NCBI GenBank assembly: GCA_028687475.1 | Contig: JAQUAB010000001.1 | Location: forward strand, 62,001-126,000 | Reading direction: 5' to 3' | Source: Candidatus Gracilibacteria bacterium | Lineage (GTDB): Bacteria; Patescibacteriota; Gracilibacteria; BD1-5; UBA2023 | Length of the DNA: 64,000 nucleotides | In this document: positions 58,794 through 61,468 of the stretch, piece after piece | Layout of the letters: the number at the start of each line of letters is the position of its first letter | Numbering within the stretch: the stretch's first letter is position 1 | Notes under the pieces: generated by a model | Told to the model about the DNA's origin: nothing | What the model saw: only the letters and a program-made list of their open reading frames with translations | Database searches by the model: none | Position numbers and translations under genes: made by a program

Positions 58794-59258
58794 ATGCTAG
58801 ATTTCCTAAATCAGAAACTTTGAACTTCTTTTAAAGAAGATGACCTAATGGCACTTAAAGATTTTGTTTTGTTATGGAACGTATTTGAAGATACTTTGTT
58901 TAATAAAAGTTTCAGTGTTACAAAAGCATCTGAATTTATTTGAAGCAATTCTCTGGATATTGAATTATTTGAAAAACACCTATCCTATTTCAGGGATCGA
59001 TATGTTTTAAATTGAGTTTTTACAGATAAATATCAGCTATTTTTCCGAACTAGCGACCGAGAAGATATTGTAAAGAAAGTTTTATTGTGAGAAACTTCAA
59101 ATTCTGATGAATTAATACTCGGAATGCTATTAATTATTTTCAGATATAGAAATAATTTGTTTCATTGACTTAAAGAGTTTTGAAAATTCGATAAACAAAA
59201 AGAGAATTTCGAAATAGCAAATGATTTCTTAAAAACCATAATTGATTATATTCTCTAA
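58794..59258 (+). CDS. HEPN-like hypothetical protein (154 aa)
   Basis: All-helical protein with FRYRNNLFHGLKEFGKFDKQ near the C-terminus, an R-x4-H motif in the position of HEPN/Apea-type domains. The N-terminus has LMALKDFVLLWNVFEDTLFN. Six TGA glycines. No partner nucleotidyltransferase is adjacent. Confidence 0.6.
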
Positions 59259-59265
59259 AAATAGA

Positions 59266-59847
59266 CTATTCTTTTTCAATTCAAGTAATATAAGAAAATC
59301 ACTCCCAATTAAAATGCGGGATATTATAAAATACCTGCTTTTCATCTGGGGAAAGTTTTTTCCACATTTTTACAAAAGCAATCTGAAAACGTCATGACCA
59401 ACAATCATTATAATTAAAGTCAATATGATATACTCCTGTATTAAATCTTGTTAACTCATGAATAGTTTTTTCTACCTTCCTAAACTCATCTTCGGAAACC
59501 TGTTTATTAAAAATTCTAAATTCTTTTCCTTGAAAAGCAACTCCTTTAGTAAATTCCTTTCCCTGAGGTGTATACCCATCTATGAAGTAACAAAATATAT
59601 TATTTCTCGTAAATTTTAAACCTCTGCAATAAAAACAATCTTCGCAAAAAATACATGCATCACAATAGTGACAATTACGAACATTTGAAACATTATTACA
59701 ATAAAAGCTATCTCTAGAATAATTGATTTGATGACAATATTGGCAACCAGATGAAGTACCTGATCAGACACAATAGTGGCACCATTGTAAACTTTTACAA
59801 CCAATACAATTTGTACATGATGCATCACAATTTAAACACTCCTTCAT
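59266..59847 (-). CDS. Cysteine-rich protein with many CxxC pairs (193 aa)
   Basis: The first about 90 residues contain 18 or so cysteines in CxxC and CxxxC units (CLNCDASCTNCIGCKSLQWC, HYCVGSGTSSGCQYC, RNCHYCDACIFCEDCFYCRG), as in multi-zinc modules. The C-terminal half is without Cys except one, and aromatic-rich (KMWKKLSPDEKQVFYNIPHF). Four TGA glycines. No family recognised; metal or nucleic-acid binding is likely. Confidence 0.65.
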
Positions 59848-60142
59848 ATTATTCTTTGGAAAAAAATAATCAAACATACCTATTATTTTATAAAGAAGTA
59901 AACGAATTCTATTTACAAGAAAATTTTAAGAATCTAAGAATCTTCTAACACATAGAATATATAAATACATTATTATGTAAAGGTAAATAATTTTACATAT
60001 ATCACTATCTGCATAAAATGGGGTTCTCCCGAAAGTATTGGTTTCAGTTATAGTCTTTGTATGATTTCTATATAAGATTTATTTCTCATTTAATGATATC
60101 TATGAAGTTATGATTAAACTAATTAATATTGACGTATGGAGT

Positions 60143-60260
60143 GTTGGCTTCGCCCCCGCTGGTTGCAGGTTAGCAAAAAGCACAAAATCTTCAATAACTA
60201 TAGCGGACTGATATACAAGGAGGGGTAGCAAGTGTGGTTCAATTCCACGAGCCAGCACCA
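60143..60260 (+). ncRNA. tRNA-like RNA of 118 nt, class unclear
   Basis: Acceptor GTTGGCT pairs with AGCCAGC (one wobble), followed by A and encoded CCA. The T-arm is canonical (TGTGG-TTCAATT-CCACG). Between them are about 83 bases that do not form ordinary D and anticodon arms. Instead GCCCC can pair with GGGGT, CCGCT with AGCGG, and TTGC with GCAA. It is too long for a normal tRNA and too short for a known tmRNA. No ALAA-type tag is seen. A terminator follows at once, so it is an independent transcript. Confidence 0.6.
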
Positions 60261-60273
60261 TTAGAAAGCCAGA

Positions 60274-60297
60274 AGACCAGAAATGGTCTTTTTTTCT
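60274..60297 (+). terminator. Terminator of the tRNA-like RNA
   Basis: AGACCA-GAAA-TGGTCT followed by seven Ts, 13 bases after the encoded CCA. Confidence 0.9.
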
Positions 60298-60489
60298 TTT
60301 TTGACTTCATAAACACTTTCTATATACTTGACCTGTCAAGCATTTAAAAAGTAAATTACATTTACTCACTTCGTGAACGGCAATGCTTGCCGTTTTTTAA
60401 ACGCTCGGAAGACTTCGCTCACTCGGAAAATAAGCAAGCTTCTTTTCCTCGTTCTGCTCGTCTATCAACTATTAATTAAGTATATTTTT

Positions 60490-60944: not shown

Positions 60945-60975
60945 ATACATATGTATATACTGTATACATATGTAT
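60945..60975 (+). promoter_or_regulatory. Perfect 13-bp inverted repeat in front of the rhuM-like gene
   Basis: ATACATATGTATA-TACTG-TATACATATGTAT, 8 bases before the ATG, overlapping any promoter. A typical operator for a dimeric repressor, such as the MarR protein just upstream or the gene's own product. Confidence 0.65.
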
Positions 60976-60982
60976 TTCATAT

Positions 60983-61468
60983 ATGAACAACGAGAATAAT
61001 AATATCATCATCTATCAGAGAAAGAATGGAGAAATCCAGATACAGATGGATCAGAAATCCGATACCGTCTGGGCTCGACAAGAACAGATTGCCGAGTTAT
61101 TTGATATCGATAGAACGGTCGTAAATAAACATATTCGCAATGTTTTAAATACTGATGAGCTAGATCCAGACTGAGTATGTGTAAAATTTGCACATACTGC
61201 GGAAGATGGAAAAACCTACCAAGTTATGTTCTATAATTTGGATATGATTCTTGCGGTTGGTTACCGTACTAATTCCAAAAATGCTATCAAATTCCGTCAG
61301 TGGACAACCGCCAGACTCAAGGAATATCTCGTCCAAGGGTATTCTATCAACCAATCTCGTCTTGATAAATTGAAGAAAAGTCCACTAAATCTCCTCATTG
61401 CCCAGAGTGATCCGAAGGAGAAAGAGATGATGATAAAGCTGGTGGTGAACCTGATAAATCAGGGATAA
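60983..61468 (+). CDS. RhuM-like virulence-associated protein (161 aa)
   Basis: The RhuM family start has IIIYQRKNGEIQIQMDQKSD, TVWARQEQIAELFDIDRTVV and NKHIRNVLNTDELDP, then VMFYNLDMILAVGYRTNSKN and FRQWTTARLKEYLVQGYSIN. Full RhuM proteins are about 330 residues, so this is the N-terminal part only. One TGA. Often found in toxin or restriction islands; molecular role unclear. Confidence 0.85.

Follow-up and report, generated by a model that had tools for sequence, protein, structure and literature searches.

A 64,000-nt stretch of a Candidatus Gracilibacteria genome (contig JAQUAB010000001.1; this whole stretch is hereafter the window, and coordinates are positions in it) encodes a 118-nt RNA at 60143-60260 on the plus strand, which carries the ends of a transfer RNA (tRNA) together with motifs of the tRNA elbow and has no anticodon arm. 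In the reading that we hold to be probable, it belongs to an undescribed Gracilibacteria family of free-standing, terminator-ended, tRNA-like noncoding RNAs and acts as a non-decoding tRNA mimic, likely a decoy or antitoxin. The family, with four firm members and a tentative fifth, is well supported; its function we infer. The preliminary description had placed the RNA at exactly these coordinates and had offered a much reduced transfer-messenger RNA (tmRNA), a tRNA with an insertion or a new tRNA-like regulator as its identity, and the evidence favours the last of the three. The parts of the RNA (RNA positions 1-118 correspond to 60143-60260) are listed below with the evidence for each.

60143..60260, +, tRNA-like RNA, 118 nt (motif scan and covariance model searches)
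60143..60149, +, P1 acceptor stem, 5' strand GUUGGCU (compensatory changes at two of seven pairs, every cell paired)
60150..60151, +, UC linker, equivalent to tRNA positions 8-9, with U8 in the four firm members
60152..60156, +, P2, 5' pyrimidine-rich strand GCCCC, where the 5' strand of a D-stem would sit (pair probability ~0.8; weak across homologues)
60158..60164, +, D-loop-like motif GCUGGUU, with GG at RNA positions 19-20 (GCUGG common to the four firm members)
60163..60176, +, P3 hairpin UUGC-AGGUUA-GCAA (recovered by an independent prediction from the alignment; one pair changed on both sides)
60177..60221, +, central strand, A-rich, mostly unpaired, without a conserved open reading frame; conserved GCA(C) at 60180-60183
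60222..60226, +, P2, 3' purine-rich strand GGGGU (pair probability)
60233..60249, +, T-arm UGUGG-UUCAAUU-CCACG, with loop UUCAAUU (motif scan, covariation)
60250..60256, +, P1 acceptor stem, 3' strand AGCCAGC (pair probability, covariation)
60257..60260, +, discriminator A and encoded CCA (sequence)
60271..60302, +, intrinsic terminator, hairpin at 60271-60292 and T-tract (one found versus 0.2 expected)

The paired acceptor, T-arm, encoded CCA and terminator that had first drawn attention to the locus are real. The acceptor (GUUGGCU/AGCCAGC) has 7 bp including one U-G wobble, and a motif of T-arm and NCCA end gave 40 matches on both strands of the 1.06-Mb genome, namely the 39 tRNAs found by ARAGORN and the site at 60143; the background is nil genome-wide, and thus the tRNA-like ends of the 118-nt RNA are not a chance likeness. 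An alternative 5' strand of the acceptor (GCTGGTT at 60158) fits in sequence, but its pair probability is 0.00 versus 0.93 for the strand at 60143, and a start at 60158 is also ruled out by the compensatory changes of the homologues, which select 60143. Concerning the interior, two helices had been proposed in place of the D and anticodon arms. The first one, GCCCC/GGGGT (P2), is plausible and unproven, with a pair probability of ~0.8 in the window copy, a similarly placed helix in the homologues, and no significance when tested one sequence at a time (p 0.03-0.76). The second one, CCGCT/AGCGG, has a pair probability of ~0.3, lies outside the consensus fold of four members and was dropped. The minimum free energy of the 118-mer alone is unremarkable (z -0.49), and therefore the evidence for the fold is comparative. 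The purine-rich side of P2 (AAGGAGGGGT, 60217-60226) looks Shine-Dalgarno-like to the eye, and the strand opposite is pyrimidine-rich in the firm homologues too.

Homologues, covariation and distribution

Covariance models built from one, three and then four sequences were searched over 353 genomes of the class. The single-sequence model gave full-length matches in G059 (52.8 bits, E = 1.2e-10) and G064 (49.8 bits, E = 7.2e-10), both from another family of the order to which the window genome belongs, while the remaining matches stood at ~27 bits or less. With the three-sequence model a fourth member was found in G122 (59 bits), from another family of the class. G071 supplied a weak fifth (31.5-33.2 bits), regarded as tentative, since the same model can score ordinary tRNAs at ~33 bits. 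The four-sequence model left this set unchanged, apart from one weak match unlike a member, and gave no firm new member over 380 phylum-wide genomes. Searching 39-40 relatives of G064 and G122 at higher sensitivity yielded no further convincing member, and BLAST against 40 relatives and 27 genomes of the family returned only chance coding-sequence matches or shared T-arm words. Pattern scans of the genome collection recovered only two Gracilibacteria already known from the model search, and those of IMG/VR found no homologue.

Among the weak model matches, L098, L242, L243, L157 and L310 are ordinary tRNAs, and L099, L100, L241, L244, L305 and L309 appear to be fortuitous or to fall in coding sequence. 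A 27-nt match in Klebsiella phages proved to be the 3' end of an unrelated, unannotated tRNA-like gene of the phage. This 73-nt gene (Klebsiella phage Shaphc-TDM-1124-4, MW713578.1; L092:753-825) has the acceptor GCTGGTT/AGCCAGC and no obvious D-arm, sits between an annotated tRNA-Thr and a tRNA-Gly-pseudo, and its 3' end also matches in ~30 related Klebsiella phages.

The members, 115-133 nt in length, share one arrangement. The acceptor 5' strand (GCUGGUC in G059, G064 and G122; GUUGGCU in the window copy) is followed by a pyrimidine-rich strand, GCUGG and P3. Next comes an A-rich strand that has GCA shortly after its beginning, and then a purine-rich strand, which 0-6 nt separate from the T-arm; the acceptor 3' strand follows the T-arm. 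The four firm members have U at position 8 and the GCUGG motif, which is absent in G071. The GG falls at positions 19-20, but at 16-17 in G064; in most tRNAs of the window genome it is at 17-19, and in two of them it stands in the context AGCUGGUUAG. CCA is encoded in three of the five members (window copy, G064 and G071), and a terminator closely follows the tRNA-like 3' end in all five. The four firm members have a G+C content of 0.49 vs. 0.31 in the flanks, 0.34/0.15, 0.40/0.19 and 0.42/0.24.

The four-sequence alignment has no unpaired cell in P1, P3 or the T-stem. At five pairs both bases differ between members while the pairing is maintained, and none of 500 shuffles reached the observed paired percentage, number of such pairs or covariation score; when the partners were slid by one to three columns, the paired cells fell from 95% to 51% or less. 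RNAalifold, run with no structure given, returned P1, P3 and the T-arm, as well as a short extension closing the GC of GCUGG onto a later GC. Reading frames starting from the conserved GCA encode AQNLQ, ARKL and AHNIQTLGKVNY, each ending in a stop codon, and in G059 the frame is open up to the T-arm; none is conserved, and the other frames agree no better. The RNA is probably noncoding, and that a family of such tRNA-like RNAs exists we regard as very probable.

With four firm carriers and one tentative among the 353 genomes of the class, the family is patchy, as is the case for an accessory or mobile gene. Absence of the RNA from close relatives had been put forward as a sign that would speak against it. 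None of the 26 other genomes of the same family carries it, yet this fails to refute the reading, because more distant Gracilibacteria carry homologues.

Proposed mode of action and genomic surroundings

The RNA retains the upper half of a tRNA, namely the acceptor stem, U8, a D-loop GG close to its usual position, the T-arm and, in three of the five members, CCA. The anticodon arm is lost, the strand after the D-loop leading through P3, the A-rich strand and P2 to the T-arm. Such an RNA may fold with a tRNA elbow through contact of the D-loop and T-loop, may be trimmed like a tRNA by RNase P and 3' nucleases, and would occupy a tRNA-handling protein without decoding. What is retained (acceptor stem, T-arm and probably the elbow) is what tRNA-handling proteins that ignore the anticodon recognise, and what is missing is the decoding arm, the target of anticodon nucleases. 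The simplest and most likely use would be to act on a tRNA-targeting ribonuclease of the same accessory island, as its decoy or RNA antitoxin. Overall, we consider that action as a tRNA mimic is probable.

The carrier loci look like accessory or defence islands. In the window, the RNA (41% G+C) lies in an AT-rich island of 21-33% G+C at 58.7-60.45 kb, between a DUF2130 gene and a MarR gene. The window genome reads TGA as glycine, and its open reading frames need code 25, with a tRNA-Gly(UCA) present. Two genes precede the RNA in the island:

58794..59258, +, HEPN-type gene, 154 aa, motif RNNLFH (code 25), candidate partner (motif)
59266..59877, -, Cys-rich orphan protein, 203 aa, between the HEPN-type gene and the RNA

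Additionally, a RhuM-family protein at 60956-61468 of the window matches the PADLOC candidate families PDC-S05 and PDC-S23. The RNNLFH protein has relatives encoded by rhizobial and Vibrio plasmids. In G064, an oxidoreductase-like gene and ligA (both named by eye) are separated by 2 kb, which is taken up by the RNA and a 376-aa RVEYTH protein. In G122, the RNA adjoins a TIGR02391 protein (RNPKAH; PADLOC Aga_HEPN), and a second HEPN-type protein (RNQVAH; PADLOC CARF_HEPN) and a PemK/MazF-like gene (read by eye) are found nearby. A large serine recombinase lies ~1.3 kb from the RNA in G059, and MazF-like and DUF5677 proteins are near it in G071. Thus, a HEPN motif occurs in the adjacent or next genes at three of the four firm members (window, G064 and G122), in families that differ. 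The HEPN-type neighbour is the first candidate for the protein partner, a doubtful assignment drawn from these three loci of four and from unrelated HEPN families. A further step, which we find rather unlikely, is a mobile cassette of ~2 kb that would couple a tRNA-cleaving HEPN ribonuclease with a mimic offering no anticodon arm to cut; with such a tRNA-shaped antitoxin, the enzyme would stay inactive as long as the mimic is present and no phage infection interferes.

Several observations weigh against action as a mimic and against the HEPN link. No HEPN motif was found in the G059 neighbours checked, and no relationship among the HEPN-type proteins of the window, G064 and G122 could be detected. 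The window HEPN-type protein has homologues on three proteobacterial plasmids and one viral contig, none of them with such an RNA in its vicinity, so that this protein does not need the RNA. The single-sequence AlphaFold models of both neighbours are of low confidence and cannot confirm a fold. Pairwise identities, computed with a gap-tolerant alignment, are not counted in the evidence. Furthermore, CCA is unencoded in G059 and G122, although the G059 tRNAs seen and the G122 tmRNA do encode it, and with only four firm members the covariation is limited and P2 is unproven.

The patchy distribution, the AT-rich island of the window, the large serine recombinase near the G059 copy and the MazF-like genes near the G071 copy would also suit an RNA with a structural or regulatory role in a mobile element, concerned with its integration site, replication or copy control, in which the tRNA likeness would serve processing or stability only. 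This is unlikely, as the carriers have no element gene in common and the patterns and searches used turned up no relative of the RNA in collections of phages or plasmids or in IMG/VR.

Readings as tRNA, tmRNA or Y RNA

A degenerate tRNA gene, or a tRNA with an unusual intron or insertion that still gives a decoding tRNA, would account for the tRNA-like acceptor, D-loop motif and T-arm, and at a 60% threshold ARAGORN fits a low-quality tRNA-Phe(AAA) interrupted by a 21-nt intron. The locus and the other members have the acceptor stem and T-arm of a tRNA, with CCA encoded in three of the five, but at default thresholds none of them is matched by ARAGORN, the RF00005 model or any other Rfam family, searches that were among the checks proposed in the preliminary description. 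To look for an anticodon arm with a 7-nt loop, with or without an intron, every stretch 0-49 nt long in the window copy, and 0-63 nt long in all copies, was removed in turn and the remainder was rescored with ARAGORN; no such arm was found. The best score of the window copy after one deletion was 100.1, which was equalled by 23 of 60 shuffled middles, so that a tRNA with one insertion, as had been suggested, is unsupported, and the homologues yielded differing, inconsistent 'tRNAs'. The 39 tRNAs of the genome already read all amino acids, and hence no tRNA is missing. Finally, the compensatory changes across families argue against decay, which leaves a decoding tRNA quite improbable. As to the tRNAs themselves, tRNA-Gly(UCA) (G000:C4:91761-91839, minus strand, outside the window) lacks the D-loop GG that the other tRNAs of the genome have, and a tRNA-Arg (G000:C4:91233-91310, minus strand, also outside the window) has the anticodon GCG instead of the usual ACG.

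A miniature tmRNA, with a tRNA-like domain and a short tag in the A-rich strand that would rescue stalled ribosomes, is very unlikely. The general order is the same (acceptor, stem, unpaired A-rich strand, stem, T-arm), and the GCA triplet after P3 is kept in four members and opens the short frames given above. However, the tags mismatch in length and ending, the G059 frame runs on into the T-arm, and no tmRNA-type tag frame is conserved. The G3-U70 alanine identity pair is absent, the acceptor pair 3-70 being U-A in all members. RF00023 does not match at the locus, and its match in the genome lies elsewhere: the true tmRNA is on another contig, with the ends GGGGAUG...CAUCUCCACCA and the G3-U70 pair. 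True tmRNAs with long tags likewise coexist with the RNA in G064, where the tag ends in LAA, G071 and G122, that is, in three of the four other carriers. The lack of a conserved frame, judged on four sequences only, and the presence of a true tmRNA make the miniature form unlikely, and the much reduced tmRNA suggested at the outset is thereby set aside. In G064, two tmRNA genes exceed the Rfam cut-off (C28:22060-22518 and C5:117-562), which may reflect assembly contamination, listed at 7%.

A Y RNA of the YrlA type with its tRNA-like module would suit the size, the tRNA mimicry and the ends GCUGGUC/GACCAGC, which may resemble a Y RNA stem. These points are outweighed by the absence of a TROVE (Ro60/Rsr) protein in all five carriers, the lack of a Y RNA match in the Rfam copy used (which may lack a bacterial Y RNA model) and a terminal stem that is the acceptor itself, joined directly to the T-arm, so that this identity is barely credible. 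The RNA does not pass the defining tests made for tRNA, tmRNA and Y RNA, while its upper half would work like that of a tRNA, and it is best placed in a new family of its own among the tRNA-like noncoding RNAs.

Comparison with known RNAs

Few non-decoding tRNA mimics are known in bacteria, the main ones being tmRNA and YrlA. A compact, patchy and separately transcribed family in the reduced genomes of Gracilibacteria, unseen by Rfam and ARAGORN, would add another tRNA-like RNA, whose processing, charging and protein partners are directly testable; if the HEPN link were true, it would be a tRNA-shaped antitoxin.

Like tmRNA (SsrA, RF00023), the new RNA has tRNA-like ends (acceptor, T-arm and CCA), no anticodon arm and, where the lower half would be, a long stem and an unpaired A-rich strand. 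It differs in its length of 115-133 nt, versus about 370-460 for tmRNA, in having no conserved tag and no G3-U70 pair, in its GG motif, which stands after and not before the second stem, and in coexisting with a normal tmRNA. With the bacterial Y RNA YrlA, which has been put forward as a competitive inhibitor of an anticodon nuclease (PMC7790460), it shares the nature of a noncoding tRNA mimic, but it has no separate Ro-binding stem, no Ro60/Rsr gene in its carriers and no Rfam match. RNA antitoxins of HEPN ribonucleases are known, for example in AbiF (PMC12373285). The abiF RNA (RF03085) is likewise a small RNA linked to a HEPN ribonuclease. It is a motif of 36-37 nt, however, and no Rfam match was found at our locus; in the new family the HEPN link is genomic only and incomplete. 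Finally, non-canonical tRNAs such as tRNA-Sec, allo-tRNA and tRNA-Pyl have unusual arm lengths around a tRNA core (PMC7609411); the new RNA shares such a core with unusual arms, but while those tRNAs keep the anticodon arm, it has none.
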